Shown here one piece after another: positions 352 through 22,105 of a stretch of 64,000 bases of DNA. Both the position numbers and the translations under genes were made by a program. Origin of the DNA: Variovorax sp. (GTDB lineage: Bacteria > Pseudomonadota > Gammaproteobacteria > Burkholderiales > Burkholderiaceae_C). The stretch's first letter is position 1; each line of letters starts with the position of its first letter. Under the pieces are notes generated by a model that had not been told where the DNA came from, made no database searches, and saw nothing but the letters and a program-made list of their open reading frames with translations. Location: the NCBI GenBank assembly GCA_025352265.1, contig JANXTS010000041.1:1-64000 (forward strand). Reading direction: 5' to 3'.

Positions 352-1179
352 ATGAGCACCGACATCGACCGTACGCAACGCGGCATTCAGAGCATCGAAG
401 TCGGCGGCCAGCTGCTGCACGCACTCGTCCACAGCGGACGGCCGATGGCGCTGAAAGACCTCGCCCGCGAAGCCGACATGAGTGCCGCCAAGGCGCATCC
501 GTACATGGTCAGCTTCGGGCGGCTCGGGCTCATCGAGCAAGACGCCGTCAGCGGTCACTATCTGCTTGGCCCGCTCGCTTTGCAACTGGGGTTGATCGGG
601 CTGCAGCAGGCCAATCCGGTGCAGATCGCGACACCGATGATCGATGCGCTGGCGCAGCGAATCGGCCAGACGATCGCGATCGCGGTGTGGGGCGATCGCG
701 GTGCCACCATCGTTCGCATTGCGGAGTCGCCAGCGGCGGTGCACGTCGCCATGCGCCACGGCACGGTGTTCTCGCTGACCGACACGGCTTCGGGCCGGCT
801 CTTCGGCGCCTACCTCGATGCAGCCATCGTGAAGCAGCAACTCGATGACGCCCGAGCACGCCGCAAGCTGCGCGACCGCGAAGGGTCGGCCAAGGTCGTC
901 GGCATGCCGCCGCAGCCGCCTGTGCCGGCATGGAAAGACTTTGAAGTGCAGCTCGACGAAGTTCGTCGCCACGGCATCAGCCGCTCGGAAGGCGAGATCG
1001 TTCCGGGCGTCAACGCGATGTCGGCGCCGGTGTTCGACCACACAGGTGCGATCAAGTTGGCCATCACCGCGATCGGTGCGGCCGGCATCTTCGACAGCCG
1101 CTGGAACGGCGAACTGGCGAAGGCGCTCAAGGCGTGCGCCGATGCGGTGTCGCAGCGACTGGGTGCGCCGCGGCGCTGA
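352..1179 (+). CDS. IclR-family transcriptional regulator
   Basis: A 275-residue protein, the usual length for the family. Residues about 12-75 form the N-terminal winged helix-turn-helix (GIQSIEVGGQLLHAL, then LKDLAREADMSAAKAHPYM). The rest is the IclR effector domain, including GISRSEGEIVPGVNAMSAPV, the conserved segment close to the ligand pocket. These proteins regulate catabolic or transport operons in response to small organic acids or aromatics. The gene faces the MBL-fold hydrolase across 128 bp and ends one base before the stop of the convergent SDR gene. It could control the hydrolase, the neighbouring catabolic operon, or both. The ATG has only a weak ribosome-binding site. Confidence 0.9.
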   Translation: MSTDIDRTQRGIQSIEVGGQLLHALVHSGRPMALKDLAREADMSAAKAHPYMVSFGRLGLIEQDAVSGHYLLGPLALQLGLIGLQQANPVQIATPMIDALAQRIGQTIAIAVWGDRGATIVRIAESPAAVHVAMRHGTVFSLTDTASGRLFGAYLDAAIVKQQLDDARARRKLRDREGSAKVVGMPPQPPVPAWKDFEVQLDEVRRHGISRSEGEIVPGVNAMSAPVFDHTGAIKLAITAIGAAGIFDSRWNGELAKALKACADAVSQRLGAPRR

Positions 1180-1180
1180 A

Positions 1181-1954
1181 TCAGGTCATCAGCCAGCCGC
1201 CGGCGACATCGATGACCTGGCCCGTAACGAAAGCGGCGTCCGCAGACGTGAGATAGCAACACACGTCTGCGACCTCGGACGGCTCACCCAGGCGTCCCAG
1301 CGGCGTCACATCGACCACTGCGTTGTTGGCGGCGTCAGAGACCGTGCGAACGAGTGGTGTCGCGATGCGCCCCGGCGCAAGGGCGTTGACGGTGATGCCG
1401 TGAGGCCCGAGCTCGCCGGCGAGGTGCCGGGTGAAACCGATCAGGGCCGATTTGGTAGCACTGTAGTGGCAGGCCACGATATCGCCCAGGTAAGCCTTCC
1501 CGGCAACCGAAGACATCGACACGATCCGCCCGTAGCGCCGATCGATCATGCCGCCGGTCACCAGTCGCGAGAAGTTGAAGGCGCCGTTCAAGTTGACGCC
1601 GATCACGCGCTGCCACTCGGCCGGGTCCATGCGATGGACAGGCGCCGGCTTGCCGCCGTGTTTGGGCGAGATGCCAGCGTTATTGATCAGGACATCGATC
1701 GGACCAAGGGCCAATTCGATCTCGCGCTGGGCCTGCTCGCAACTGGCGTAGTCGGCCACGTCGGCCGCCGCGAAGTGTGCGCGGCACCCGCGGCTGCGCA
1801 GCTCGGCTGCTTGACGCTCTCCCGCCTCGCCGTTCAAGTCGACGATGCCCACGGCGGCACCTTCGGCGAGATAGCGCTCGACGAGCGCAGCCCCGATGCC
1901 GCCGCTCCCGCCTGTGACGAGCACGACGCGATCAGCGTGGCGCATCGGCGCCAT
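1181..1954 (-). CDS. SDR-family NAD(P)-dependent oxidoreductase
   Basis: A classical short-chain dehydrogenase of 257 residues. The cofactor motif TGGSGGIG is at residues 14-21, NNAG at 91-94, the catalytic serine in SMSS around 147-149, and the Tyr-Lys pair in YSATK at 164 and 168. An Asp after the second strand (IVDLN) favours NAD over NADP. It would oxidise or reduce a hydroxyl/keto group on the unknown substrate of this operon. It is the last gene of the nine-gene leftward operon and overlaps the reductase gene upstream by 23 bases, so translation is probably coupled. A second in-frame ATG three codons in is an alternative start. Confidence 0.9.
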   Translation of the reverse strand: MAPMRHADRVVLVTGGSGGIGAALVERYLAEGAAVGIVDLNGEAGERQAAELRSRGCRAHFAAADVADYASCEQAQREIELALGPIDVLINNAGISPKHGGKPAPVHRMDPAEWQRVIGVNLNGAFNFSRLVTGGMIDRRYGRIVSMSSVAGKAYLGDIVACHYSATKSALIGFTRHLAGELGPHGITVNALAPGRIATPLVRTVSDAANNAVVDVTPLGRLGEPSEVADVCCYLTSADAAFVTGQVIDVAGGWLMT

Positions 1955-2933
1955 CCTTCACGATCAGCATGATCTTGCCGATGTGCTTGCTGCTTTCCAT
2001 CAGCAGATGCGCTTCGGCCGCGCGCTCGAGCGGGAACACCGCGTGAATGACGGGCAGGCACCGTCCCTGCTCGAGCACCGGCCAGACCTTCTTTTGCAGC
2101 CTCGACACGATGGCCGCCTTCTGCTCGGCCGTGCGCGCACGAAGCGTAGAGCCGGTCAGCGTAAGGCGCCTGAGCATCACGGGCGTCGCGTCGAAGTCGA
2201 AGCGGCTGCCTTCAAGGAACGCCAGCTGCACCAGGCACCCTTCGAGTGCCAGGCTCGCGATGTTGCGCACGATGTAAGGCGCACCCACCATGTCGATGAT
2301 GATGTCGACGCCGCGGCCTTCAGTCTCCTGCGCCACCACGGCGGCGAAGTCTTCCTCGCGATAGTTGATGGCGCGCAGAGCACCGGCGGCCGCGCAAGCC
2401 TGCGCTTTCTCTGCGTTACCCACTGTCGTGTAGACGGTTGCGCCGAACTCGCGCGCCAGCTGAATCGCCGTGAGACCGATGCCGCTCGACCCGCCGTGCA
2501 CGAGAACCGATTGGCCCGACTCGAGCCGCGCGCGATCGAAGAGGTTCGCCCAGACTGTCAGGTACGTCTCCGGCAGCGCAGCGGCCTGCAGCAAGCTGAG
2601 GCCGCCAGGCACCGGCATGCAGTGCCGCGCATCGGTAAGGCAATAGTCCGCGTAGCCGCCGCCAGGCGTCAATGCGCAGACGCGATCGCCCACGCGCCAT
2701 GCGTCGACGCCTGCCCCTGTCGCCGCGATCACCCCCGCCACTTCGAGCCCGAGATGGGGCGATGCGCCCTTGGGCGGCGGATAGTTGCCGGAGCGTTGCA
2801 ACACGTCAGGCCGGTTGACGCCGGCCACGTGCACCTCGATCAATACCTCGCCAGGGCCGGGGACAGGACGCTCGTCGTCGACCAGTTTCATCACGTCGGC
2901 ATTGCCGCCTGCACCATGCACTATACGTTTCAT
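1932..2933 (-). CDS. Zeta-crystallin/PIG3-type NAD(P)H:quinone oxidoreductase
   Basis: A medium-chain reductase of 333 residues without the zinc ligands of alcohol dehydrogenases. The N-terminal GroES-like domain includes VAGVNRPDVLQRSGNYPPP, the signature of the TP53I3 (PIG3)/quinone oxidoreductase branch. The nucleotide-binding motif is HGGSSGIGLTAIQLA. Relatives reduce quinones or enoyl/enone compounds with NADPH. In this operon it lies between the LacI gene (11 bases away) and the SDR gene (23-base overlap). It therefore probably handles an unsaturated or quinone-like intermediate of the same pathway, but the substrate cannot be read from the sequence. Confidence 0.88.
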   Translation of the reverse strand: MKRIVHGAGGNADVMKLVDDERPVPGPGEVLIEVHVAGVNRPDVLQRSGNYPPPKGASPHLGLEVAGVIAATGAGVDAWRVGDRVCALTPGGGYADYCLTDARHCMPVPGGLSLLQAAALPETYLTVWANLFDRARLESGQSVLVHGGSSGIGLTAIQLAREFGATVYTTVGNAEKAQACAAAGALRAINYREEDFAAVVAQETEGRGVDIIIDMVGAPYIVRNIASLALEGCLVQLAFLEGSRFDFDATPVMLRRLTLTGSTLRARTAEQKAAIVSRLQKKVWPVLEQGRCLPVIHAVFPLERAAEAHLLMESSKHIGKIMLIVKDGADAPR

Positions 2934-2944
2934 GTCTGCTTCTC

Positions 2945-3985
2945 CTAGTTGGGTCTCTGTGAATTCAGTTCGACCCGGTTGAGGTCCTTAAGACTCTCGC
3001 GCATCGTCAATGTCGTCTGCAATGGACGCGTCTCGCCGAGCGCTCGACCCTCGATGAGGCTGACGATGCGTTCGGCCGACAAGCGACCGATCTCCGAAGT
3101 CGGCACGTGCACGGTCGTCAGTCTCGGCTCGACCAGGTTCGCGAGTTCGATGTCGTCCGAGCCGGTAATCGAGAGTTCATCCGGCACGCGAATGCCACGG
3201 TCGCGGCACTCACCGATGGCGCCCACTGCCTGGATGTCGGTTCCGCAGATCAATGCTGTCGGCCGGTCGGTCGTTCCGAAGAGTTGCGCTACGGCACTGC
3301 GACCGCCTTCGAAGGTGAAGGGGCGTTCGACGATCCAGTCTTCGCGCAGCACGAGACCGTGCGCCTTCAGCGCGGCGCGCGTTCCCTCGATGCGTGCGCG
3401 CACGCGTTCGTTCCCATCGGCGATGCCCGGGCACAGCGCGATTCGCATATGGCCGCGCTCGACAACGAGGCCTGCCATGCGCTGTGCGGCGTCGAGGTAC
3501 GAGAAACCCACGCACTGCCCTGGCCTCGTCTCATCGACGGCCCAACTCAATACGTAAGGCAAGCCGTACTGGCGCTGCAGGTCGTACACAGCGTCGGCGT
3601 GATCGGTGCCGACGAGCACGATGCCGTCGACGCCACGCTCGACGATCGCGCGCAGCAGATCGACCTCGCGCGCGGGCTCGTAGTCGTGGCTTGCGACGAG
3701 AACTTGATAGCCGAGACCCCAAAGCGTTTGCTGCAGGGACTGGATCGAGACCGCGAAGATGGGGTTGTCGAGTGTCGGGTAGATGGCCGCAATCGTCTTC
3801 GTGCGGCGCGAGGCCAGCGCCTGCGCTGCGCCGTTTCGCACGTAGCCCAGTTGCGCCACCGCACGCTGAACGCGCTCGAGAGTGTCGGGACGAACCTCGC
3901 GCGGCACCGAGAGCGAGCGCGAAGCACTGCCGAGCGAGACGCCTGCGAGGCGCGCGACATCCTGGAGAGTGGCGCGGTCCTTCAT
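2945..3985 (-). CDS. LacI-family transcriptional regulator, embedded in its operon
   Basis: 346 residues. The N-terminal helix-turn-helix is TLQDVARLAGVSLGSASRSL (about residues 6-25). A hinge helix with NGAAQALASRRT carries the leucine that the family uses to prise open the central CpG of its operator. The remainder is a periplasmic-binding-protein-like effector domain, with VDGIVLVGTD and LICGTDIQAVGAI as typical landmarks. The gene is seventh of nine in the operon, ten bases after the GMC gene. Two perfect TGAAGCGCTTCA palindromes with a central CG stand in front of the operon's first gene, which suggests an autoregulated repressor released by the imported substrate or a product of it. Confidence 0.93.
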   Translation of the reverse strand: MKDRATLQDVARLAGVSLGSASRSLSVPREVRPDTLERVQRAVAQLGYVRNGAAQALASRRTKTIAAIYPTLDNPIFAVSIQSLQQTLWGLGYQVLVASHDYEPAREVDLLRAIVERGVDGIVLVGTDHADAVYDLQRQYGLPYVLSWAVDETRPGQCVGFSYLDAAQRMAGLVVERGHMRIALCPGIADGNERVRARIEGTRAALKAHGLVLREDWIVERPFTFEGGRSAVAQLFGTTDRPTALICGTDIQAVGAIGECRDRGIRVPDELSITGSDDIELANLVEPRLTTVHVPTSEIGRLSAERIVSLIEGRALGETRPLQTTLTMRESLKDLNRVELNSQRPN

Positions 3986-3995
3986 CGGGATCTTT

Positions 3996-5591
3996 TCATC
4001 GCGGCCTGTCCGCCAGGATCATGTCGGCACCTTTCTCGGCAACCATCATCACGGCCGCCTGAATATTGCCCGACACGATCCTTGGAATCACCGATGCATC
4101 GACTACCCGCAGTCCCTGCAGACCGCAGACGCGCAGCCGCGAATCGACGACCGCATCGGCACCGCTGCCCATGCGGCAGGTCCCAACCGGGTGATAGATC
4201 GTCTGCCCGTTTCGGCGCGCGAACTCGAGCCACGCCGCATCGTCCCGAGTGGCATCGCCCGGACCCGTCTCATGCGCGATGTAGTGCTTCATCGCAGGCT
4301 GCCCGACGATACGACGCGCTATCTTCATCGCCTCAACGATGCATTCCTGGTCGACTGCACTGTCGAGAAAATTCGGCCGAATCGCCGGCTGCGTGTGCGG
4401 ATCGAGCGTCGTCGAATGCACGCTGCCGACCGACTCCGGGCGAAGCTGACTCACGCCGATCGTCATGCCCGGCTCGCGGTCGAGAATCCGCTCAGCCGCA
4501 TTCGCATAGCTCGCGTGCATGAAGAAATACTGCGCATCGGGTCGATCCATTTCAGGCCGCGTCTTCACGAAACCGTGCACGAGCCCGGTGCCCAGAGTGA
4601 GGATGCCGCGCCGTTGGGCGTAGTAACGCGCAACCTCACGCACGAGGCGCCAGCCGCGCGACATCTCATTGAGCGTCAACGTGTTTCGAACACGCCAATT
4701 CATGCGCGTGGCGTAGTGGTCGATGTAGTTCTCGCCGACGCCTGGCGACTCCACGCGCATCGTGATTCCAAGCGGGTCGAGCACATCCCTGCGACCGATG
4801 CCCGAGAGTTCGAGGAGCTGAGGCGATTGAAAGGCGCCGGCAGCGATGATGACTTCGAGCTGCGCGTCGACGGAGATTTGCTGCCCGGCCTGGCGATAGA
4901 CAACGCCCACGCAGCGCGTGCCTTCGAATCGCAAGCGCTGCACGTGGGCATCCGTCACGACGACGAGGTTAGACCGATGCCGTGCAGGCTGGAGGTATGC
5001 GTCGTACGCACTCCAGCGCCTGCCTCTGCGCTGATTGACCTGGTAGTACCCAAAGCCTTCCTGGTCGTCGCCGTTGTAGTCGGCGTTCATCGGCTGGCCG
5101 TCGTCCGCAGCGGCGGCAAGGAACCTTTCCGCGATCGGGAAACGCTCGCTCACCTGCTCGAGTTGCACCGGGCCTTCCTTGCCACGCATGGCGCCACCCG
5201 TGGCGTAGTTCTCCAGCTTGCGAAAGTAAGGCTCGACGTCTTTGTAGCTCCAGCCGGTGGCGCCTGCGCGCTCCCAGCTGTCGTAGTCCTCGCGCTGGCC
5301 GCGCACGTAGATCATCCCGTTGATCAGCGTGGAGCCGCCGAGGCCACGACCGCGCGGCACAGAGATTCGACGATCGTGCGTGTTCGGTTCGGGCTCGGTC
5401 TGAAAGAGCCAGTTGTAGCGTTTGTTCGTGAGCAACTTGCTGAAGCCGGCGGGGATGGCAATCCAGCGACTCGCCGGTTCGCCGCCTGCCTCCAGCATCA
5501 GCACCCGCTGCTTGCCGTCCGCGCTCAGCCGGTTGGCGAGCACGCAGCCCGCAGCGCCGCCGCCGACGATCACGTAGTCGAAGAGTTCCAC
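3996..5591 (-). CDS. GMC-family FAD-dependent oxidoreductase
   Basis: A choline-dehydrogenase-like flavoprotein of 531 residues. The FAD dinucleotide motif is YVIVGGGAAGCVLANRLS at the N-terminus, followed by the GMC signature around GRGLGGSTLINGMIYVRG. Near the C-terminus HPVGTCRMG provides the catalytic histidine region, and the family's second signature NIQAAVMMVAEKGADMIL follows. It oxidises a primary or secondary alcohol, most likely passing electrons to the quinone pool. I chose the GTG at 5591 because the FAD strand begins five residues later and GGAGAA lies just upstream. The open frame extends further but would overlap the preceding gene. It is the sixth gene of the LacI-controlled operon. 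Confidence 0.92.
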   Translation of the reverse strand: MELFDYVIVGGGAAGCVLANRLSADGKQRVLMLEAGGEPASRWIAIPAGFSKLLTNKRYNWLFQTEPEPNTHDRRISVPRGRGLGGSTLINGMIYVRGQREDYDSWERAGATGWSYKDVEPYFRKLENYATGGAMRGKEGPVQLEQVSERFPIAERFLAAAADDGQPMNADYNGDDQEGFGYYQVNQRRGRRWSAYDAYLQPARHRSNLVVVTDAHVQRLRFEGTRCVGVVYRQAGQQISVDAQLEVIIAAGAFQSPQLLELSGIGRRDVLDPLGITMRVESPGVGENYIDHYATRMNWRVRNTLTLNEMSRGWRLVREVARYYAQRRGILTLGTGLVHGFVKTRPEMDRPDAQYFFMHASYANAAERILDREPGMTIGVSQLRPESVGSVHSTTLDPHTQPAIRPNFLDSAVDQECIVEAMKIARRIVGQPAMKHYIAHETGPGDATRDDAAWLEFARRNGQTIYHPVGTCRMGSGADAVVDSRLRVCGLQGLRVVDASVIPRIVSGNIQAAVMMVAEKGADMILADRPR

Positions 5592-5605
5592 TGCTGTTCT
5601 CCGGT

Positions 5606-6433
5606 TCAGGCCACCACGGTCGGGATCGGCCGGTCGAGCATGAAGGCCGCCATGTGACGAATCTGGCTCGCGAGCATCGGTGCGCCTTCGTGCACGCGGC
5701 ATCCACGTGCACGAGCCGCCTTCAGCAGTGCGGTCTCTGCCGGATCCATGATGATTTCGGCGACGATCTGTGCGGGGTCGAGCCGCATGACGTCGAGCGG
5801 CAGCGCATCGCCCGGACGCAACCCCAACGAGGTCGCATTAACGACGATATCGTGGCCCGACGGGTCGTTGCTGCCGACCGATGCGACGAGGGCAGGATAC
5901 TTTGCGTGCAGCCGTTCGATCAGACTTTCGGCCTTGTCGGAGCTGCGATTCGCCACCGTGATGCGATCCGCACCTGCTTGCGCGAGCGAGAACGCAATGG
6001 CGCTCGCGGCGCCACCAGCGCCCGCGAGATACACGCTCCGGCCGGCCGGATCGATGCCCGCGCTCCGCAGCCCATCGACGAAACCAATGCCGTCGAGCAT
6101 GGCGCCATGCAGTCGTCCATCGGGCCTGCGATGCACGACGTTGACGGCGCCGATCTGCCGTGCCTCTTCGCTCACTTCGTCGCACAGTGCGAGCGCGCTC
6201 GTCTTGTGCGGCACTGTCACCACGCAACCGAAAAAATTCTGCATGCAACGCAAGGCATTCATCACGACCGGGAGATCAGCCGCGCTGATGTGCAGCGGCA
6301 CCATCACCGCATCGATGCCATGCGCGCGCACCAGGTCATTGATGCGCTGCGGGGTCTTCACATGGTGGATCGGGTCGGCCACGATCGCCAGAAAGCGCGT
6401 GTGTCCTGTGATCTCGAAAGGGCTCGAAAGCAT
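5606..6433 (-). CDS. Shikimate/quinate dehydrogenase family protein with altered substrate site
   Basis: 275 residues with the AroE fold: substrate domain at the N-terminus, then a Rossmann domain with AGAGGAASAI around 137-146. The catalytic Lys77 (VTVPHK), Asn98 (GAVN) and Asp114 (MLDGIGF) are kept. The serine pair that holds the shikimate carboxylate in AroE (HSxS) is replaced by HVKT at 24-27, and the usual NTDG is MLDG. It is therefore probably a dehydrogenase for another cyclic hydroxy acid or polyol rather than the biosynthetic enzyme, which agrees with its place in a catabolic operon between the transporter and the GMC oxidoreductase. It could still be a quinate-type enzyme. Confidence 0.85.
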   Translation of the reverse strand: MLSSPFEITGHTRFLAIVADPIHHVKTPQRINDLVRAHGIDAVMVPLHISAADLPVVMNALRCMQNFFGCVVTVPHKTSALALCDEVSEEARQIGAVNVVHRRPDGRLHGAMLDGIGFVDGLRSAGIDPAGRSVYLAGAGGAASAIAFSLAQAGADRITVANRSSDKAESLIERLHAKYPALVASVGSNDPSGHDIVVNATSLGLRPGDALPLDVMRLDPAQIVAEIIMDPAETALLKAARARGCRVHEGAPMLASQIRHMAAFMLDRPIPTVVA

Positions 6434-6449
6434 CGTGGGGGGATTTCGT

Positions 6450-7154
6450 TCAATGCCCGAGATAGGCCTTGCGGATATGCGGATTCACCAGCAACTCTTT
6501 GCCCGTGCCTGACAACACCACCTCGCCGTTCTCGAGCACATAACCGCGGTCCGCCAACTGCAGCGTATGAAATACGTTCTGCTCCACCAGCAGCACCGTG
6601 GTTCCCTGGTCGGCGACCTTTCGAACGATCTCGAACATCTGCTCCACGAGCAAAGGCGAAAGACCGAGCGAAGGCTCGTCGAAGATCAGCAGGCGTGGCC
6701 CGGCCATCATGCCGCGCGCGATGGCGACCATCTGCTGCTCACCGCCCGAGAGCGAGACGGCGAGTTGCTTCAGCCGTTCCTTGACCTTCGGGAACAGCAT
6801 CAACACGTCCTCTAGCCGCTGCGCGTGCGAATCGCGGGCAGACTTTTTGAACGACCCCATGCGCAGGTTCTCCTCCACGGTGAGGAATGGGAACAACTGC
6901 CGGCCTTCGGGAATCATCGTCACGCCGAGTTCGACGATCTCGTGAGGCTGGCGCGCGGCGAGCGGCACGCCGTCGAAGTCGATGCTTCCGGCGGTCGCGC
7001 GCACGATGCCGCAGAGCGTTCGCAGCGTCGTCGTCTTGCCGGCACCATTGGCGCCGACGATGGTGACGATCTCTCCGCGCTTCACATCGAACGAGATGCC
7101 GTGCAAGACTTCGCTCTTGCCGTATCCGGCGTGCAGATCACGAACCTGAAGCAT
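6450..7154 (-). CDS. livF: Branched-chain-amino-acid-type ABC transporter, ATPase LivF (system 1)
   Basis: 234 residues, the usual LivF size. Walker A is VGANGAGKTTTLR, the signature is LSGGEQQMVAIARG and Walker B is LLIFDEPSLGLSP. Together with the fused LivM-LivG protein it forms the ATPase pair of a HAAT-family importer. I placed the start at the ATG at 7154 because MLQVRDLHAGYG is the family N-terminus and GGAAAGGG precedes it. This overlaps the end of the LivM-LivG gene by 17 bases. The AroE-like gene follows after 16 bases, which ties transport to catabolism. Confidence 0.92.
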   Translation of the reverse strand: MLQVRDLHAGYGKSEVLHGISFDVKRGEIVTIVGANGAGKTTTLRTLCGIVRATAGSIDFDGVPLAARQPHEIVELGVTMIPEGRQLFPFLTVEENLRMGSFKKSARDSHAQRLEDVLMLFPKVKERLKQLAVSLSGGEQQMVAIARGMMAGPRLLIFDEPSLGLSPLLVEQMFEIVRKVADQGTTVLLVEQNVFHTLQLADRGYVLENGEVVLSGTGKELLVNPHIRKAYLGH

Positions 7155-8928
7155 GGGTATAGCCCTTTCCAAGATAGGCCTGGATGACGTCCACGTCGTT
7201 CGCGACTTCCGCGGGCAAGCCTTCCTTGAGCACCTTGCCAAGATGGATGACGACGATGCGGTCGGAGAGTGCCATCGTGGCCTGCATCAGGTGTTCGATC
7301 ATCAGCACCGACACACCGGACTCCCGGATGCGCCGGATCATCACGATGGCGCGCGCAACGTCGGCTGGGTTCAAACCGGCAAGCACTTCGTCCAGCAACA
7401 AGACGCGAGGCGAGGTGGCCAGCGCGCGTGCGATCTCGAGTCGCTTCATGCCGCCGACGGTAAGGCTGCGTGCTTCGGTGTCGAGCAACGGCGTCAGCTC
7501 CGTGAGCTCGGCCACGGAGCGGGCGAGGGCTTCGGCCTGGTCGCGGCCCTTGGTGCGCATGAAGGCGCCGAGCAGCAGGTTCTCCAGTACGGTCAAGCCG
7601 GCGAACGGCTGAACGATCTGGAACGTGCGCCCGACACCTGCGCGCGCAAAACCCTCGGGGCTTCGAGGGGCAGTCCAGTTGCCTGCGGCATCGCGGATCG
7701 TCACGGTGCCGCCGTCCGGCCGAAGGAATCCGGAGAGCTGGTTGAACACGGTCGTCTTGCCGGCGCCATTGGGCCCAATGACGCCGAGAATTTCGCCCTC
7801 GTGCAGCGTGAGAGTCACCTTGTCGGTCGCCTTCAAACCGCCGAAGCGCTTCTCGATGTTGTCTGCCTTCAGGATCGGCTGGCCGATGCTCGAGATATCG
7901 CGCAAAGTCGCGGGCAACGGTGCAACGGCAACGCGCCGGACACGCCCAAAATCAGGCAGCTTGTCGATCAAGCGAGCCACACGCCCCCCAAGCTGGCCGA
8001 CCAGTCCGCGCGGGAAAAAGAGCACCACAGCCACCAGCACTACGCCGTACACGAATCCGTGCGTGCCATTGCCGAAGGCGCTCAGCCACCCACGCGCCAG
8101 TTCTGCAATCGGCATCACGACGACCGCGCCGAGCACCGGCCCAGCGACTGTGCCGAGCCCGCCGATCAAGGCGAACATCGCGACCTGGATGGAGAGCTCC
8201 AGCGAGAAGGCGGAAGACGGCTCGATGAACGTCAGGTACATGCCGTGGAAGCTGCCGATCAGGCTCGTGAGGCAGGCCGATATGACGGCCGCCGCGATCT
8301 TCACCCGCACCGGATTGATGCCGATGGCGCGCGCCGCATCTTCGCGCTCGCGCACTGCGATGAGGTAGTAGCCGAAGCGCGAATGACGAATCGCATGGCA
8401 GATGCCGAGCACCACCATCAGGAAGCAGAACGCGACCAGAAGATAGGCCCACTTCTCGCGGAAGATCATCCACTTGAGGCCGATCTGCAGCGGCACGTTC
8501 AGTCCGCCTGCGCCGTGTGTCCAGGCTTCTTCGTGATTGACGAGCAGCCTTGCGACTTCGAGGAACGCGATCGACGCCAGCGAGAAGAACGGCCCGCGCA
8601 GGCGCAGGGTCGGATACGCGATCACGAGCGCGACGAGCGCCGATACGGCGACGCCCGCGAACATCCCTACCCATGGCGAGATACCGAAGTGCAGCACCAG
8701 GAGTCCAGCGGCGTAGCTGCCGATTCCGTAGTACACGGCGTGCCCGAGCGATAGCTGCCCCGCGAAGCCGCCGACGATGTTCCACGCAGAAGCCAACGCG
8801 GCGAAAACGCACACCTGGATTGCGAGGTGCATGACGAACGGCGACTGCGTTGCCAGAGGCAAGACGAGCAACGCGGCGAGTGCGAGATACGCGATGTATC
8901 CGCGTGGATTCAGTGGGTTGGGAATCAT
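7138..8928 (-). CDS. Fused LivM permease-LivG ATPase (system 1)
   Basis: A 596-residue fusion. Residues 1 to about 320 are a polytopic LivM permease (repeated hydrophobic helices, conserved GHAVYYGIGSYAAG and AARAIGINPVRVK). After a linker, residues about 350-596 are a LivG ATPase with Walker A GPNGAGKTT (near residue 385) and Walker B VLLLDEVLAGLNP. The ABC signature reads LTVGGMKRLEIARAL, which departs from the common LSxGQ form. Normally livM and livG are separate genes. Fusing them fixes the stoichiometry of one membrane subunit to one ATPase. It lies 13 bases after livH. Confidence 0.92.
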   Translation of the reverse strand: MIPNPLNPRGYIAYLALAALLVLPLATQSPFVMHLAIQVCVFAALASAWNIVGGFAGQLSLGHAVYYGIGSYAAGLLVLHFGISPWVGMFAGVAVSALVALVIAYPTLRLRGPFFSLASIAFLEVARLLVNHEEAWTHGAGGLNVPLQIGLKWMIFREKWAYLLVAFCFLMVVLGICHAIRHSRFGYYLIAVREREDAARAIGINPVRVKIAAAVISACLTSLIGSFHGMYLTFIEPSSAFSLELSIQVAMFALIGGLGTVAGPVLGAVVVMPIAELARGWLSAFGNGTHGFVYGVVLVAVVLFFPRGLVGQLGGRVARLIDKLPDFGRVRRVAVAPLPATLRDISSIGQPILKADNIEKRFGGLKATDKVTLTLHEGEILGVIGPNGAGKTTVFNQLSGFLRPDGGTVTIRDAAGNWTAPRSPEGFARAGVGRTFQIVQPFAGLTVLENLLLGAFMRTKGRDQAEALARSVAELTELTPLLDTEARSLTVGGMKRLEIARALATSPRVLLLDEVLAGLNPADVARAIVMIRRIRESGVSVLMIEHLMQATMALSDRIVVIHLGKVLKEGLPAEVANDVDVIQAYLGKGYTHASGS

Positions 8929-8941
8929 GTTTTATATCCCC

Positions 8942-9814
8942 TCACTCGGAACCACGACCCAGGCCGAACAGACCGGTCGGTCGCACGATCAGGATCACGA
9001 GGAAGATGACGAAGTAGACGACCTCCTTGAGGTCGGGGCCGACGTAGAAGCCGGCAAGGCTGTCGATCAGGCCGATGAACATCGAGCCGATCACGGCGCC
9101 TGGCAGGCTGCCCATGCCGCCGAGCACGACGATCACGAACGCGGTCAGGACGAAGTAGGAGCCGACCGTCGGGAAGACCGGGTATTGCAACGAAAGGAGG
9201 CACGAAGCAATGCCGACGAGGGCTGCGCCGATGCCGAAGGCGAGCACGTAGGTCCGGTTGACATCCACGCCCATCAACGCGGCCGCGGTGCGGTTCTGCG
9301 CAAGCGCACGAAACGCCCGGCCTGTGTAGGTATGCGTCAGATAGAAATGCATGGCGAACGCGACCGCGATCGCCACGACGAAGGTGAATATCTGGCCACT
9401 GACGAATGTCAGCGGACCAAGGCTCAGGTTCTGATTGCCGAAAGAGAATTCGACCTTGCGGATATCGGCACCGAACAGCAGCAAGGCAAGGTTCAGCAGC
9501 GCCGTCGAGACCCCGACGGTCGCGAACACCTGGATGTGCGCGTCGGCGGACAGCAATGGCTGGATCACGTAGCGCTGCATGAGCGCGCCGATCACGAAGA
9601 GAAAGACCACGACGATCGGGACCGCGAGGTAGGGGTGCAGGCCCAGGCGACTGGCACAGAGCCACGCCACGTACATGCCCACCATCAGGAATTCGCCGTG
9701 CGCGAAGTTGACCACTCGCACGACCCCGAAGATCAGCGTCAGACCGATGCTGATGATCGCGTAGGCGCCGCCGAGCAGCAGGCCGTTCGCTACCAGCTGA
9801 AGCAGCAATGACAT
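8942..9814 (-). CDS. livH: Branched-chain-amino-acid-type ABC transporter permease LivH (system 1)
   Basis: 290 residues and strongly hydrophobic, with about eight predicted membrane segments. The N-terminus (LLLGGAYAIISIGLTLIFGV, then VVNFAHGEFLMVGMY) is the classic LivH opening. The cytoplasmic coupling loop that contacts the ATPase is visible as RALAQNRTAAALMGVDVNRT. It pairs with the LivM part of the downstream fusion to form the membrane channel of the importer. The gene is second in the operon, 61 bases after the binding-protein gene. Confidence 0.93.
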   Translation of the reverse strand: MSLLLQLVANGLLLGGAYAIISIGLTLIFGVVRVVNFAHGEFLMVGMYVAWLCASRLGLHPYLAVPIVVVFLFVIGALMQRYVIQPLLSADAHIQVFATVGVSTALLNLALLLFGADIRKVEFSFGNQNLSLGPLTFVSGQIFTFVVAIAVAFAMHFYLTHTYTGRAFRALAQNRTAAALMGVDVNRTYVLAFGIGAALVGIASCLLSLQYPVFPTVGSYFVLTAFVIVVLGGMGSLPGAVIGSMFIGLIDSLAGFYVGPDLKEVVYFVIFLVILIVRPTGLFGLGRGSE

Positions 9815-9875
9815 GAGAAATCCTGAGTGCGGGGCGAACCGCGCACGTTGGTTTGCTGGTTGCCAGGAAGGCTGA

Positions 9876-11084
9876 TCAGTTTGTGGCGACGGGTTTCGCG
9901 TTGGCGACCCCTTCAGGGAACACCGTCGCGAGCTTGCCCTGCTGCCACTGCATCAGGTTGAGCGTTGCGGCCGTGTTCTGGCCGGTCTCGTTGAACTGGA
10001 TGCCCCAGCCGGCGGCCGTGCTGCCCATTGGCGCGCGGTAGGCCAGTGCTGCGTCGCGGATCTTGTCCTTGTCGGTCGACTTGGCGCGTGCCAGCACCTC
10101 GAGCATCGCCTTGGCGCCGACGTAGTTGGCGAGGCTGTGGCCGGAGCGCGGCGCCATAGAGAACTTCTTCTGGTAAGCAGCGACGAAGTCGCCCAGACCG
10201 GGCGCACCGGCCGCGTTCATCGTGATCTGCGGGAAGTCGACGTCGTACACGCCTTCAATCGGCGCACCGACGGCTTGCGCCGTGTCGGTCAGCGAATGAC
10301 CACCACCGCCGCCGATCACCGCCTTCGGTTTGTAGCCGGCAGCAGCCGCCTGGCGGAAGAAGAGCACCGCGTCGTTCTGGTAAGCGGTGTGCAAGACCAC
10401 GTCGGCCCCGGCGCCCTTCAGCCGCAGGATCACCGACGACAGATCGACCGTCTTTGCAGAGTAGGCCTGCACCTCGACGACCGTGATGCCGAGCTTCGCG
10501 GCGCCTTCCTTCTGCGCCGCGGCGACCAGCGAGCCGTATGGGCCGTCCTCATGAATGATCGCGAGCTTCAACGTCTTGGGATCGACCTTGAGCGTTGGGG
10601 CGACCACCTTGACAAGCCCCTCGAGCGTGCGATCACCGATGTTCTTGGCAGTGGGGTTGATGCGGAACAGGTACTTGAAACCGCGCTGCGTGATCGTGTC
10701 GGCGGTTGCGCCGAGCTCGAAGTACGGAACGCCTGCCAGTTCGGTGACCTGGGTGGCCGCCTGCGAGATTCCCGATGCATAGCTGCCAAAGACCGCGACA
10801 ACGTTCTCGACAGACGTCAGCCGGCGCGCTTCGCCGACCGCCTGGCTCGCGTCGACCGCATCGGCTTTCACCAGCGTGATCTGTCGGCCGTTGATTCCAC
10901 CCGCGGCATTTCGCTCATCGACCGCGAGCTGCACACCGCGATAGCTTTCGTCCCCCAGCAAGGCAAGTCCCCCGCTGAAGGGGTACAGCGCCCCGAGTTT
11001 GAGTTCCTGAGCGTATGCGGGCGCACTGGCTAGTGCGAACGCAATACCGACCCCTGCCGTGACCCGGCGCAAAGCATTGAACAT
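9876..11084 (-). CDS. Periplasmic substrate-binding protein of ABC transporter (system 1)
   Basis: 402 residues with a Sec signal peptide (MFNALRRVTAGVGIAFALAS, cleavage likely after APAYA). The mature part has the LivK/type I periplasmic-binding fold, beginning ELKLGALYPFSGGLALLGDE. It captures the substrate in the periplasm and hands it to LivH/LivM. I chose the ATG at 11084 because of AGGAGA seven bases upstream and the proper signal-peptide n-region. It is the first gene of the nine-gene operon, directly behind the two LacI-type operators. HAAT binding proteins take amino acids, amides, urea or aromatic and cyclic acids, so the ligand is open. Confidence 0.9.
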   Translation of the reverse strand: MFNALRRVTAGVGIAFALASAPAYAQELKLGALYPFSGGLALLGDESYRGVQLAVDERNAAGGINGRQITLVKADAVDASQAVGEARRLTSVENVVAVFGSYASGISQAATQVTELAGVPYFELGATADTITQRGFKYLFRINPTAKNIGDRTLEGLVKVVAPTLKVDPKTLKLAIIHEDGPYGSLVAAAQKEGAAKLGITVVEVQAYSAKTVDLSSVILRLKGAGADVVLHTAYQNDAVLFFRQAAAAGYKPKAVIGGGGGHSLTDTAQAVGAPIEGVYDVDFPQITMNAAGAPGLGDFVAAYQKKFSMAPRSGHSLANYVGAKAMLEVLARAKSTDKDKIRDAALAYRAPMGSTAAGWGIQFNETGQNTAATLNLMQWQQGKLATVFPEGVANAKPVATN

Positions 11085-11113
11085 GGCTTGTCTCCTGATG
11101 GTTTTAGTGCGGA

Positions 11114-11125
11114 TGAAGCGCTTCA
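11114..11125. promoter_or_regulatory. LacI-type operator, proximal copy
   Basis: A perfect 12-bp palindrome TGAAGCGCTTCA with a central CG step, 30 bp upstream of the binding-protein start codon. LacI-family regulators recognise palindromes with central CpG. An identical copy lies at 11182-11193, centre to centre 68 bp. A LacI-family gene lies inside the operon that follows. Position between promoter and start fits repression, possibly by looping. I found no third copy elsewhere in the window by eye. Confidence 0.65.
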
Positions 11126-11181
11126 GACCCACCAGATCGAACCGTCCAGCTTTCAGGTCATTGCCGGAGACAAATTTAACT

Positions 11182-11193
11182 TGAAGCGCTTCA
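11182..11193. promoter_or_regulatory. LacI-type operator, distal copy
   Basis: The second identical TGAAGCGCTTCA. The shared match extends to 13 bases (ATGAAGCGCTTCA) when one copy is read on the opposite strand. It lies about 98 bp upstream of the binding-protein start, where a leftward promoter is expected. TTGCAG and GATAGA with an 18-bp spacer just upstream form a weak leftward promoter candidate that would put this operator immediately downstream of the start point. The 160-bp interval 11085-11244 holds no gene. Confidence 0.65.
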
Positions 11194-11244
11194 TTTCTCT
11201 ATCGGGGTTCACCCGTGATGCCTGCAACAAGCCACCACGCACTG

Positions 11245-11556
11245 CTACGCGCGCACCTTGGAGATCTGCGTGACCGGCTTCAGATTGGTGTAATTAGCGA
11301 CGTCGTTGCGGATGTCCTTGGCGTGCGGCGAGAAGGCGGCATAGAAGGCCTCGGTCGAGTCGAAGTACATGTGCACCGCGGCCACGAAAGCCGGTCGGCT
11401 GCCCGGCGCCGGGCCAGAAACGCCTTCGTCGATCTCGACCTTCTTCAAGGCATCGCCGAGCAACTTCTGAATCATCGTCACGTGCTTGTCGGCGTAGTAG
11501 TTCATGTCGAAGGTACTGCCTTCGTCATTGGGGTAAAGAACGCTTACTTTGATCAT
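11245..11556 (-). CDS. EthD-like small ferredoxin-fold protein
   Basis: 103 residues starting MIKVSVLYPNDEGSTFDMNY and including YYADKHVTMIQKLLGD, the EthD/dimeric alpha-beta barrel pattern with the conserved His in the DKH segment. EthD proteins are small helpers of oxygenase pathways, first seen with ethyl tert-butyl ether degradation, and their reaction is unclear. It is the last gene of the second transporter operon, five bases after livF, with GAGG before the ATG. A much longer frame in phase with it lies inside livF on the same strand and is not coding. Function here is unknown; a role in aromatic acid breakdown is a guess from context. Confidence 0.8.
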   Translation of the reverse strand: MIKVSVLYPNDEGSTFDMNYYADKHVTMIQKLLGDALKKVEIDEGVSGPAPGSRPAFVAAVHMYFDSTEAFYAAFSPHAKDIRNDVANYTNLKPVTQISKVRA

Positions 11557-11561
11557 CTGGA

Positions 11562-12332
11562 TTACCTCTTCGGCTGGGGAAAAATGGTCGGCGCAACGGT
11601 CGCAGCGCGTTGGGCTCCGATGCCCAGATACGTATCGATGATGCGTCGGTCGTGCAGCAGATCGCGGGCCGCACCGGTGAGCGCGACAGCGCCCATCTCG
11701 AGCACATAGCCGCGGTCGGCCACCTGCAGCGCGGCGCGCGCGTTCTGCTCGACCAGCAGCACCGACACGCCATGCTGCCGCAAAGACGACACCACCTGCA
11801 AGACCTCGCGCACGATGAGCGGCGCAAGGCCTAGCGAAGGTTCGTCGAGCATCAAGAGGCGCGGCCGCGCCATCAATGCGCGGCCGATGGCGAGCATCTG
11901 GCGCTCGCCACCCGACAGCGTCGAGGCCATCTGGCCGCGCCGTTCGCGCAGCCTCGGAAAGATCTGAAAGACCTCGTCCATGCGCTCCTTTTGGTCGCGC
12001 CGTCCGGTACGCCAGCGATAGAAGCCGCCGAGCAGCAGGTTGTCTTCGACCGACATCTCGGCGAACAACTCGCGCCGCTCCGGCACCAAGGAGACGCCGC
12101 GCGCAACCATCGCCTCGACGCTCGGGCGCGCGATGCGTTCGCCGTTCAGCGACAGCGCGCCCTTCGCTGGCAGCAAGCCCATCGCGGCGCACAGCAAGGT
12201 TGTCTTGCCGGCGCCGTTCGGGCCGATCACGGTGACGATTTCGCCCTCGTTCACCTCAAGCGCGACGTCATGCACGGCTTCGACCGCCCCGTAGGAGACG
12301 CTGAAGTTTTCGAGCCGGAGCAACGGGATCAT
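11562..12332 (-). CDS. livF: Branched-chain-amino-acid-type ABC transporter, ATPase LivF (system 2)
   Basis: 256 residues with Walker A GPNGAGKTTLLC, signature LSGGERQMLAIGRAL and Walker B LLMLDEPSLGLAP. It completes the second HAAT importer with the LivM-LivG fusion, whose stop codon it overlaps in an ATGA arrangement (12329-12332). It is clearly diverged from the LivF of system 1. The transporter lies directly downstream of the paa genes on the same strand, which suggests uptake of phenylacetate or a related aromatic acid rather than leucine. Confidence 0.92.
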   Translation of the reverse strand: MIPLLRLENFSVSYGAVEAVHDVALEVNEGEIVTVIGPNGAGKTTLLCAAMGLLPAKGALSLNGERIARPSVEAMVARGVSLVPERRELFAEMSVEDNLLLGGFYRWRTGRRDQKERMDEVFQIFPRLRERRGQMASTLSGGERQMLAIGRALMARPRLLMLDEPSLGLAPLIVREVLQVVSSLRQHGVSVLLVEQNARAALQVADRGYVLEMGAVALTGAARDLLHDRRIIDTYLGIGAQRAATVAPTIFPQPKR

Positions 12333-14197
12333 GCGTTGCGCCTCACTGCTTCCAGTACTTCCAATGGTTCGTTGTCGGCGACGCCCAGATAGGCCTCCAG
12401 CACCTTCGGATCGGCCTGTACTTCGGCTGGCGTGCCGGCAGCGATGATGGTGCCGAACTCGAACACCGTGATGCGATCGGCCAGGTTCATGACGAACTCC
12501 ATATCGTGCTCGACCACCAGAATGCCGAGCCCCTCATCCCGCAACTGCGACAGCAGGTCGGCCAGCGCGCGCTTCTCCAGATGGCGCAGGCCGGCGGCCG
12601 GTTCATCGAGCAGCAGCACCGCGGGCTGGCTCGCCAATGCGCGGGCGATTTCGACCACGCGCTGCTGCCCCAATGCCAGCGAGGCTGCCGGCGCATCGGC
12701 ATGCGCGCCGAGGCCGCAACGCTCGACCTGCAAGCGCGCTTCAGTCAGCAACGCAGCCTCTTCGGCGCGGTCGAGACGCAGCATCGAAGCAACCCAGCCA
12801 CGCCGCGCCCGACGGTGCGCACCGAGCGCCACGTTCTCGATCACGCTGCGCTGGCCGAGCAGCCGCACGTGCTGGAAAGTGCGGCTCAACCCCAGCGCGG
12901 CGAAGGCGCGCGAAGGTTGCATGTGCATGGTGCGGCCCATCAGCTGAACCTCGCCTTCCGTCGGATCGTCGACGCCCGAGATCACGTTGAAGAAGGTGCT
13001 CTTTCCCGCCCCGTTGGGTCCGATGAGCGCATGGATCTCACCGGCCTTGCAGTCCATCGTCACCGCATTGTTCGCGATGAGGCCGCCGAAGCGCTTGGTC
13101 ACCGCGGTCGCCTGCAACAGCACTTCGCCGCGCGCCGGCAACGTGCGCTGCGTCAACGTCGCGACACCGCTTGGCGCACGCGTTGTCTCGGGCCGAAGAT
13201 ACCGCTGCGCCAGGCGCCCCAGGGTCGGCCACAGTCCGTCGGCGAAACGCTGCAGCACCAGCACCATCAGCAGGCCGAACACGATCACCTCGAAGTTGCC
13301 GCTGGTGCCGAGCAGGCTCGGCAACACGTCCTGCAGCTTCTCTTTCAACAGCGTGATGACGGTCGCACCGAGCACCGCGCCCCACAGATGCCCGGACCCG
13401 CCGACCACCGCCATGAAGAGGTACTCGATGCCGATGTTCAGGTTGAAGGGCGTCGGGTTGACGAAGCGCTGCATGTGCGCATAGAACCAGCCGGAGATCG
13501 CCGCCATCAGCGCGGCCAAGACGAAGAGCTTGACGCGGTAGTGCGCTGTGTCGACGCCCATCGATTCCGCCATCAGGCGCCCACCTTTCAATGCACGGAT
13601 GGCACGGCCTTCACGCGAGTCGAGCAAGTTGTGCAACAGCCACAAGCCGACCAGCAGCGCCGCCCAGACCGCGATGCCGAGAGCACGCGGTGACGCCAGC
13701 GAAACGCCGGCGATGACCAGCGGTGGCACGCCGGTGATGCCGGTCTGCCCGCCGAGGAAATCCATGTTTCCGAACAGGTAGTACAGGCTCAGACCCCAGG
13801 CGATGGTGCACAGCGGGAGGTAGTGCCCCGACAGCTTGACCGTGACCGCGCCGAGCGTCCAAGCGACCGCGAAAGTCAGCACCAGCCCGAGCAGCAACCC
13901 GACCCAAGGTAGACCCGCTTCACCCACGATGCCGCCGAGCGCAGCGACCGCCATCGGCGAGGTGCAGACCCACGCCGTCGCATAGGCGCCGATGCCCACG
14001 AAAGCAGCCTGGCCGAAAGACGTCATGCCGCCGACGCCGGTCAACATCACCAGCCCGACCGCGACCAGCGAATAGAGCCCGATGTAGGTCATCACCACCA
14101 CCGTGAACTCAGGCAGAAAACCCCATGCCATTGCGAGCGCCAGAATGGCCAGCGCGGTGAGATGACGGCCTGTGAGCCAACGTTTGTCCACCGTCAT
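12329..14197 (-). CDS. Fused LivM permease-LivG ATPase (system 2)
   Basis: A 622-residue fusion with the same architecture as the protein in system 1. The LivM half carries multiple membrane helices (conserved GGMTSFGQAAFVGIGAYATA and AESMGVDTAHYRVKL). The LivG half follows a linker around residue 345 and has Walker A GPNGAGKSTFFNV (near 395), signature LALGQQRVVEIARAL and Walker B VLLLDEPAAGL. The ATG at 14197 overlaps the LivH stop as ATGA and has GGAGG upstream. An earlier in-frame start would cut into livH and is less likely. Confidence 0.93.
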   Translation of the reverse strand: MTVDKRWLTGRHLTALAILALAMAWGFLPEFTVVVMTYIGLYSLVAVGLVMLTGVGGMTSFGQAAFVGIGAYATAWVCTSPMAVAALGGIVGEAGLPWVGLLLGLVLTFAVAWTLGAVTVKLSGHYLPLCTIAWGLSLYYLFGNMDFLGGQTGITGVPPLVIAGVSLASPRALGIAVWAALLVGLWLLHNLLDSREGRAIRALKGGRLMAESMGVDTAHYRVKLFVLAALMAAISGWFYAHMQRFVNPTPFNLNIGIEYLFMAVVGGSGHLWGAVLGATVITLLKEKLQDVLPSLLGTSGNFEVIVFGLLMVLVLQRFADGLWPTLGRLAQRYLRPETTRAPSGVATLTQRTLPARGEVLLQATAVTKRFGGLIANNAVTMDCKAGEIHALIGPNGAGKSTFFNVISGVDDPTEGEVQLMGRTMHMQPSRAFAALGLSRTFQHVRLLGQRSVIENVALGAHRRARRGWVASMLRLDRAEEAALLTEARLQVERCGLGAHADAPAASLALGQQRVVEIARALASQPAVLLLDEPAAGLRHLEKRALADLLSQLRDEGLGILVVEHDMEFVMNLADRITVFEFGTIIAAGTPAEVQADPKVLEAYLGVADNEPLEVLEAVRRNA

Positions 14198-15222
14198 TCT
14201 TCGTCCTCCACGTGATGGCTCTTGAGCGAGCGCCACCACAGCACCGGAATGATCAACGTGAACACCAGAACCTCCTTGAACGCACTGGCCCAGAACGACG
14301 AGAACGCCTCGAGTTGGCCGACAAGCAACGCGCCGGCCAGCGCCATCGGGTAGCTGCCCAGTCCGCCGACGATCGCAGCGACGAAGCCCTTCAGGCCGAT
14401 GAGAAATCCGGTGTCGTAGTACACGGTCGTCAACGGCGCAATGAGCAAGCCGGATACGGCAGCGATCAACGCCGACAGCGCGAAGCTGACGTCACCCGAC
14501 AGCTCCGTCGGGATGCCCATCAACCGCGCGCCGACGCGGTTCATCGCAGTGGCGCGCAAGGCTTTGCCGACCATCGAGCGACCGAAGAAAAGAAACAGCG
14601 ACACGACCAGTACGAACGTGACGCCCACGACCACCAGCGACTGCCCGCTGATTTGCAGGCCGCCGACCTCGAAGCGCGCATCCGAGAACGCCGGCGTGCG
14701 CGAACCTTCGGCGCCGAAAAAGAGCAAGCCCAACCCGGTGAGCACGCCGTGCAGCGCGACCGACACGATCAGCAGCATCAGCACCGAGGCGTTAGCCAGC
14801 GGTCGGAACGCCAGCCGGTAGATGAGCGGCCCGAGCGGTGTGACGATGATCAACGTGTTGGCTGCCTGTGCCCACAATGAAGCGGGCCGCCAAGCGAGCG
14901 CCAAAACGCAGGCCAGCGCCGGCAAAGCGACGCACCAAACCATTGCCGAGGTCCAGTCGACCGTGGCGCCACGCTTCCAGCGCCAGGCCTCGACCACCAG
15001 CACCATGACCGCCAGCGCGAGCAACAGCCACAGGGTCGGCGGGATGCGACCGGCCTGCATTGCGGCCATCGACAACGCGCCGAACGCGACCAGCTCGCCT
15101 TGCGGGATGAAGATGACGCGCGTCACCGAGAAAACCAGCACGAGGGCCACTGCCATCAGCCCGTACACCGCGCCGTTGACCAGGCCGTCCTGCATCAAAA
15201 GCAGGGCGATCTGAGAATCCAT
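14194..15222 (-). CDS. livH: Branched-chain-amino-acid-type ABC transporter permease LivH (system 2)
   Basis: 342 residues, longer than the typical 290-300 because of an extra hydrophobic insertion around residues 75-130. The N-terminus LLMQDGLVNGAVYGLMAVAL and the coupling loop KALRATAMNRVGARLMGIPT are LivH hallmarks. Membrane component of the second HAAT importer. It starts 33 bases after the binding-protein gene and overlaps the downstream fusion gene by four bases. Confidence 0.92.
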   Translation of the reverse strand: MDSQIALLLMQDGLVNGAVYGLMAVALVLVFSVTRVIFIPQGELVAFGALSMAAMQAGRIPPTLWLLLALAVMVLVVEAWRWKRGATVDWTSAMVWCVALPALACVLALAWRPASLWAQAANTLIIVTPLGPLIYRLAFRPLANASVLMLLIVSVALHGVLTGLGLLFFGAEGSRTPAFSDARFEVGGLQISGQSLVVVGVTFVLVVSLFLFFGRSMVGKALRATAMNRVGARLMGIPTELSGDVSFALSALIAAVSGLLIAPLTTVYYDTGFLIGLKGFVAAIVGGLGSYPMALAGALLVGQLEAFSSFWASAFKEVLVFTLIIPVLWWRSLKSHHVEDEE

Positions 15223-15255
15223 TGCTTACTTTCTGGAGTCACGCCTAAAGGCTGC

Positions 15256-16401: not shown

Positions 16402-16540
16402 TCTTGTCTCCAGGATATTCAACGCAAAACAGAAAATTCAAGACGACTGGCGCAGTGCACGCCGATGTCGGGGAGAGGCGTAGTAGAGAGGCTTGCAGGC
16501 GTTGCCGCCATCGGGATTGACCCCGGCCCACGTGAACATT

Positions 16541-18935: not shown

Positions 18936-18942
18936 CACCGGC

Positions 18943-19260
18943 TCACATGTGGTCCACAGCTTTGGGCAACGCATAGAACGTCGGATGTCGATACACCTTG
19001 TCTTCCGCCGGATCGAAGTACGCGGCCTTCTCGCCCGGGTCGTTGGCGACGATCTGGTCGGAGCGCACGACCCAGATGCTGCTGCCTTCTTGCCGCCGCG
19101 TATACACATCGCGCGCCATCTGGATCGCCATCTTCGGGTCGGCTGCATGAAGGCTGCCGCAGTGCTTGTGATCGAGACCGGCCTTGCTGCGCACGAAGAC
19201 CTCCCACAGCGGCCACTCCGGTTGCGCCGCGACGTTAGCGGGCAAAGCTTCGGTCGTCAT
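18943..19260 (-). CDS. paaB: Phenylacetyl-CoA epoxidase subunit PaaB
   Basis: 105 residues. The core [20 protein letters not shown] and [20 protein letters not shown] is the PaaB signature. PaaB bridges the PaaAC heterodimers in the epoxidase assembly and is required for activity in vivo. The ATG at 19260 overlaps the paaA stop as ATGA, so expression is coupled to the catalytic subunit. Confidence 0.96.
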
Positions 19261-20273: not shown

Positions 20274-20287
20274 ATGCTTTCCTTTGT

Positions 20288-22101: not shown

Positions 22102-22105
22102 GGCT

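Follow-up and report, generated by a model that had tools for sequence, protein, structure and literature searches.

A Variovorax operon pairing AroE-family and GMC enzymes with its own LacI repressor and twin operators: a candidate pathway for sugar- or polyol-like compounds

Background

Tandem operators are known from local carbohydrate regulons of LacI-family repressors, and carbohydrate metabolism is the target of 176 of the 182 LacI groups to which a pathway has been assigned (PMC4052901). In these regulons the operators are even palindromes with a central CG, situated 30–140 bp upstream of the start, the repressor is encoded inside the regulated operon, and the spacing of the sites peaks at 13, 22 and 32 bp. 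The AroE family is known to include an enzyme that acts on a keto-sugar instead of shikimate, 5-ketofructose reductase (PDB 7cok), which shares the AroE fold; work on this enzyme also describes an AroE-like protein without activity towards 5-ketofructose (PMC7954740). Liv/HAAT importers (LivJ, SAR11_0655) consist of a periplasmic substrate-binding protein (SBP), two permease domains and two ATPases. Here we describe a predicted nine-gene operon of Variovorax sp. that combines an importer of this type with an AroE-like enzyme, further redox enzymes and a LacI repressor. It lies in a stretch of 64,000 nucleotides (contig JANXTS010000041.1, assembly GCA_025352265.1), called the window below. The operon resembles the LacI regulons in its even palindromes with central CG, in their distance from the start and in the position of the repressor gene; it differs in the spacing of its two sites, which is 68 bp.

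Operators, repressor and promoter

A first-pass annotation of the window had listed nine leftward genes with gaps of 61, 13, 16, 14, 10 and 11 bases and overlaps of 17 and 23 bases, a LacI gene among them, and had read them as a dedicated import-and-oxidise operon. With the listed starts all genes were recovered to the base on the minus strand, the gaps and overlaps were reproduced exactly, and the LacI gene is encoded inside the set. Judged from the sequence, the nine genes would form one operon and the import-and-oxidise reading is supported.

Two identical palindromes TGAAGCGCTTCA, O1 and O2, precede the first gene at a distance of 68 bp from each other, as had been noted. The whole 4.53-Mb genome contains four exact copies, two of them in the window; the pattern read backwards, used as a control, occurs once. 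Paired copies at this distance in one intergenic region are far beyond chance. The two further genomic copies both sit inside open reading frames (ORFs; crude ORF caller) and were rejected as sites of additional regulon members.

The operator pair is kept in relatives. We scanned 450 bp upstream of each SBP match (at least 50% identity) after removal of duplicates and of the loci from L140 on, and counted the LacI as present in a locus at 45% identity or more. TGAAnCGnTTCA was present in all 16 regions whose locus encodes the LacI, with two copies in 13 of them, and in only one of 43 regions without the LacI. This single region is L060, where the contig stops just past AroE, so that a LacI could not be seen there. 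The palindrome search ahead of orthologues proposed in the first-pass annotation thus gave presence with this LacI (16/16) and absence in 42 of the 43 regions where it was not seen. The 16 LacI-linked regions represent 14 loci and are not independent; one genome, Variovorax G026, barely differs from the window. In three regions a single site fits the exact pattern; a degenerate second copy is visible in L036 and L065. The two sites are 64–68 bp apart in betaproteobacterial loci and 76, 99 and 98 bp apart in three Pseudomonas loci.

The LacI protein contains a helix-turn-helix domain (PF00356, 45.5 bits, cut-off 27) and a periplasmic-binding-like effector domain (PF13377, 106.8 bits, cut-off 26.5). 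In LacI-family recognition, an operator change beside the central CG is consistent with a change in the hinge. Both sites of Pseudomonas L098 and L101 read TGAACCGGTTCA, and the hinge of their LacIs is ALALRR, versus ALASR(R/K) in the other 16 of 18 distinct LacIs; the helix-turn-helix segment GSASR is the same. This covariation (n = 2 only) fits recognition of the LacI-family kind. The case is limited by P. ovata (L086), which combines an ordinary hinge with one TGAAGCGCTTCA and one TGAATCGATTCA. From the conserved palindromes ahead of orthologous operons and their linkage to the repressor gene, the operon LacI very likely acts via the two identical sites.

For the promoter, 15 upstream regions were anchored on O1 and a -35/-10 pair straddling it was scored out of 12 consensus matches. 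The straddling offset gave a mean of 7.40/12; the 91 other offsets peak at 5.67. The hexamers are near-perfect in L066 (TTGACA/TATATT) and L072 (TTGACA/TATAGT), and the window scores 8/12 with TAGAGA/TAAATT. O1 sits in the 17-bp spacer of a predicted sigma-70-like promoter, which it would block. Some 45 bp downstream of the predicted transcription start, O2 would serve as a roadblock or loop partner.

Elsewhere in ten genomes, fourteen exact copies were inspected with their surroundings. They lie inside ORFs, except one site in Variovorax OV700 and one in G064, an intergenic copy without an assigned gene. OV700 encodes a paralogous LacI (57%) at 12 kb from the operon. Two copies of the operator, separated by 202 bp (L160, 10820 and 11022), lie at or just upstream of the start of this LacI, and one of the two overlaps a short ORF. 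In L067 (318–2870) and L068 (13963–16608) a second SBP copy, followed by an iron-containing alcohol dehydrogenase, lies under the same operator(s), a putative extension of the regulon.

Operon genes and importer

Gene family assignments were supported by Pfam and NCBIfam profiles (Table 1). The longest ORF of the SBP gene begins at GTG 11132; the most likely start is the ATG at 11084, preceded by AGGAGACAAGCC. For the GMC gene the start is most likely GTG 5591, the longest ORF reaching to 5702.

Table 1. Positions of the operon genes and regulatory sites in the window
Feature	Position	Strand	Support
Liv-type SBP	9876-11084	-	PF13458 on longest ORF; AlphaFold2 model pLDDT 88.9
LivH-type permease	8942-9814	-	PF02653
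LivM-LivG permease/ATPase fusion	7138-8928	-	PF02653 + PF00005
LivF-type ATPase	6450-7154	-	PF00005 on longest ORF (to 7241)
AroE-family dehydrogenase/ketoreductase, probably not shikimate dehydrogenase	5606-6433	-	PF08501, PF01488
GMC flavin alcohol dehydrogenase/oxidase	3996-5591	-	PF00732 + PF05199 on longest ORF
LacI-family repressor	2945-3985	-	PF00356 + PF13377
PIG3-family NAD(P)H quinone oxidoreductase-like enzyme	1932-2933	-	TIGR02824
FabG-like short-chain dehydrogenase	1181-1954	-	PF00106; NF009466 above cut-off
Operator O1, TGAAGCGCTTCA	11182-11193	.	inside promoter spacer; centre 103 bp upstream of first ATG
Operator O2, TGAAGCGCTTCA	11114-11125	.	centre 35 bp upstream of first ATG
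-35-like hexamer TAGAGA	11196-11201	-	aligned position over 15 upstream regions, 17-bp spacer
-10-like hexamer TAAATT	11173-11178	-	same alignment of 15 upstream regions

The importer set is complete, with a Liv-type SBP, two permease domains and two ATPases. It differs from the LivJ/SAR11_0655 type in its LivM-LivG fusion and in having Gly at the position of the Glu that binds ammonium. In one sequence alignment SBP position 261 is Gly in 35/35 rows, positions 260–262 all being Gly. We take position 261 to correspond to LivJ Glu226, the acidic residue for the alpha-ammonium group; the acidic ligand of an amino-acid-specific Liv importer is thus missing from this SBP. The fold search with the SBP model returned amino-acid, aromatic-acid, urea, amide, fatty-acid and pyroglutamate entries, a mixture that does not fix the ligand.

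Redox enzymes

The AroE-like protein contains both the N-terminal substrate domain and the Rossmann domain. It scored 161 bits against TIGR00507, below the curated cut-off of 200.2; another aroE locus in the genome scores 211 bits, above it, and a housekeeping role for the operon copy was rejected on these grounds. Lys77 and Asp114, presumably the equivalents of the E. coli catalytic residues K65 and D102, are invariant in 13/13 AroE rows. In all 13 rows Val25, Thr27 (a conservative change), Val/Ala72 and Leu113 replace shikimate ligands, which we assume to be E. coli Ser14, Ser16, Asn59 and Thr101. On this comparison the operon AroE is probably not a shikimate dehydrogenase. The best solved match of the AroE profile is PDB 4k28 (230 bits), an AroE-family protein which we take to be from Pseudomonas putida; with 7cok the likeness is limited to a profile match (167.8 bits). 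L037, L038 and L039 encode further AroEs of the operon enzyme's subfamily (54–56%), beside DHDPS-family, altronate-dehydratase-family and aldehyde dehydrogenase (ALDH) genes and without a GMC gene; these loci perhaps encode a sugar-acid pathway with the same AroE chemistry.

Both GMC_oxred_N and GMC_oxred_C are present in the GMC enzyme. Its best solved matches, choline dehydrogenase and a chloramphenicol-inactivating oxidoreductase, have both domains in common with it; it stays below the choline dehydrogenase cut-offs (TIGR01810, BetA, 478.8 versus 732.1 bits). The quinone oxidoreductase-like enzyme (QOR) belongs to the PIG3 family (TIGR02824, 465.6 bits, cut-off 296.8). The short-chain dehydrogenase (SDR) exceeds the cut-off of the NF009466 subfamily (251.1 versus 222 bits) and falls below that of the NF004198 equivalog (276.8 versus 296).

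Conservation of the gene set

An AroE of at least 65% identity was found in four of 36 other Variovorax genomes, some of them incomplete (92, 75, 67 and 65%). All nine genes recur in G026 in unchanged order at 92–99% identity, Variovorax J22P271 keeps this order at 74–94%, and two contigs of metagenome-assembled genomes (L060, L061) carry parts of it. A second arrangement, LivKHMGF-SDR-(ALDH)-AroE-(GlcD)-GMC-LacI, occurs in Variovorax N23 and OV700, Acidovorax, Rhodoferax and others; in some loci an OYE-family enzyme is next, and ETF genes were recognised in L035 and L082. In the Acidovorax temperans plasmid copy (L035) an IS5-family transposase gene (11152–12240) lies between the GlcD-like gene and the GMC gene. 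The exact order AroE-GMC-LacI-QOR-SDR, for which the first-pass annotation had proposed a search of related genomes, was seen in close relatives only; other loci show a rearranged set or have no importer close by.

As a module the gene set is conserved in alpha-, beta- and gammaproteobacteria. This was counted in the best 80 of 191 candidate loci from an AroE profile search, so that the counts are conditional on AroE, with thresholds of at least 55% (GMC), 50% (SDR) and 45% (QOR) identity and with GMC within 4.5 kb downstream of AroE. GMC lies downstream of AroE in 72/80 loci, LivMG is found in 51, SBP in 49, SDR in 51 and QOR in 39; in eight of the 80 loci, some at contig ends, GMC was not seen downstream of AroE. 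Among 65 well-flanked loci, 40 have GMC, LivMG and SDR together, 30 of them also QOR, and 23 have no LivMG nearby, showing that the importer is an optional component.

In many alphaproteobacterial loci the set is joined by an acetolactate-synthase-like thiamine-diphosphate enzyme, often with a Zn-alcohol dehydrogenase; loci of the Xanthobacter, Microvirga and Bosea types, along with a few others, contain an additional fused E1 alpha/beta. Next to the Salipiger version lies a gene for a SorC-type regulator that has a sugar-binding domain. Agrobacterium Q15/94 and Rhizobium ruizarguesonis TP15 combine GMC (60% identity), ALDH, FabG and AroE with an RbsABC-type importer and a lactonase-type gene (profile support covers the Agrobacterium genes and the Rhizobium binding protein). 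In Bordetella, apparent split transketolase genes, read from the sequence with no profile search, lie just before AroE (L099, 7831–9995; L124, 8058–9913), and upstream are genes for an SDR-like protein, a dehydrogenase-like protein and an enzyme of beta-keto-acid cleavage. A deoxyribonate-type pathway via the last of these was considered and rejected, as such a gene is near the operon in too few loci (nine, from seven distinct genomes, of the 96 loci L035–L050 and L060–L139); it is not among the genes of the window operon.

Genomic neighbourhood

An IclR gene (352–1179, plus strand) is convergent with the operon. In G026 (L047, 282–4541) its counterpart is divergent to, and may control, genes for an MBL-fold protein, homogentisate dioxygenase and a FAD-binding enzyme (PF01494); IclR was rejected as an operon member for this arrangement. 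Upstream of the operon (11245–22888, minus strand) are an EthD-domain protein and a further Liv operon, again with fused LivM and LivG, followed at some distance by an AMP-binding ligase and an enoyl-CoA hydratase. By its gene content this region looks like acyl-CoA/aromatic-acid catabolism.

Discussion

We propose that the operon probably serves to oxidise a sugar- or polyol-like compound by a non-phosphorylative route, with its own LacI as repressor. The compound would be small and hydroxylated, most likely derived from a sugar or polyol (a sugar, polyol, aldonate or lactone) rather than being an amino acid. When it is absent, LacI would occupy O1, between -35 and -10, and O2, which is situated in the 5' leader shortly before the ribosome-binding site, and a short loop may join them. 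The imported compound or an early product would free LacI, allowing expression of the operon, LacI included. The Liv-type ABC importer would carry the compound in, and the GMC flavoenzyme, the AroE-family enzyme (presumably NADP(H)-dependent), the FabG-like SDR and the PIG3-type reductase would interconvert alcohol and carbonyl groups. In other lineages the route may be completed by an ALDH, a GlcD-like 2-hydroxyacid oxidase and a thiamine-diphosphate enzyme, which suggests the possible order alcohol, aldehyde, 2-hydroxyacid and 2-ketoacid, followed by C-C cleavage. The window operon has none of these three; a search of the rest of the genome, made for the ALDH alone, gave homologues at 59% and 62%, the latter partial.

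The case for a carbohydrate-like substrate comes from the LacI itself with its family precedent, the Salipiger SorC-type regulator and the two loci with an RbsABC-type importer. Of the hydroxylated cyclic or polyol substrate suggested in the first-pass annotation, the polyol or sugar-like part is favoured by these observations; a carbocyclic compound, the less favoured class, would also be conceivable. Several results weigh against our proposal. The AroE retains the shikimate-site residues Thr73, Asn98 and Gln257 in 13/13 rows, its Ser to Thr change at position 27 is conservative, and AroEs of its subfamily occur in other contexts (L037–L039). The nearest solved relative of the SBP model is SAR11_0655 with L-pyroglutamate, and the ligands of its other fold neighbours include amino acids and aromatic acids. 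The operon adjoins aromatic-catabolism genes and, at four of 36 genomes, is patchy in Variovorax, and the 53–60% identity of AroE, SDR and GMC in the two RbsABC loci means that the substrate there may differ. On the regulatory side, the variable operator spacing argues against a rigid loop, and four of the 15 regions score 5/12 or less at the predicted promoter (J22P271 4, three others 5).

Some of these points would suit an alicyclic or aromatic acid (quinate-/shikimate-like or lignin-derived), imported by the Liv-type system and oxidised by the AroE-like enzyme. Fold neighbours of the SBP bind 4-hydroxybenzoate, vanillate and p-coumarate, the flanks are of aromatic character on both sides (homogentisate dioxygenase in G026; second Liv operon, AMP-ligase and enoyl-CoA hydratase in the window), and the catalytic dyad and some ligand residues of AroE are kept. 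We nevertheless consider it rather unlikely, given the shikimate ligand positions replaced in every AroE row, the sugar-type importer and regulators of relatives, and the lack of a recognised ring-cleaving enzyme among the families present in at least six of the 96 loci (family f21 was not profiled). The pyroglutamate-bound relative would also be compatible with a small non-amino carboxylic acid (pyroglutamate or a lactone acid) whose hydroxy or keto products are handled by the redox enzymes. This appears quite improbable: 32% identity is insufficient to fix the ligand, no oxoprolinase was recognised among the same families (again with f21 not profiled), and the LacI precedent points to carbohydrates. 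As to the regulator, LacI-family operators resemble one another, OV700 has a paralogous LacI with two such sites near its start, and G064 has the unassigned intergenic copy, so another LacI-family protein might bind the palindromes while the operon's own LacI acts elsewhere. That seems highly improbable, because the sites track this LacI (16/16 versus 1/43) and co-vary with its hinge, and the remaining exact copies in the genome itself, G026, J22P271 (G024) and N23 (G006) are all inside ORFs as called by the crude caller. The regulatory half of the original reading is thus well supported by these comparisons; the metabolic half, sugar or polyol oxidation, is plausible and apparently an undescribed variant.

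A description of such a pathway was not found among open-licence PMC papers searched by gene-name combinations; the one paper that matched is a Mesorhizobium transcriptome study in which 'shikimate dehydrogenase' does not occur. On the deoxyribonate-type route, PMC6365646 and PMC9007349 had none of the six terms looked for in each. A search of the same source for the operator string gave, among the matches listed, no title on bacterial regulation.

More broadly, and more tentatively, the locus may represent a widespread undescribed proteobacterial pathway for sugar- or polyol-like compounds, which has turned an AroE-family enzyme into a sugar dehydrogenase or ketoreductase with a GMC partner, and in which importers (Liv, Rbs), regulators (LacI, GntR, SorC) and thiamine-diphosphate enzymes (acetolactate-synthase-like, fused E1, transketolase-like) are exchangeable. 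The AroE-GMC pair is found in soil, plant-associated, rhizobial and marine bacteria, and piecemeal annotations as shikimate dehydrogenase, choline dehydrogenase and branched-chain amino-acid transport are probably misleading. The substrate question can be addressed via the repressor and the SBP: the repressor with its operators, footprinted by comparison, offers a ready inducer assay and possibly a biosensor. Identification of the substrate would re-annotate many genomes.

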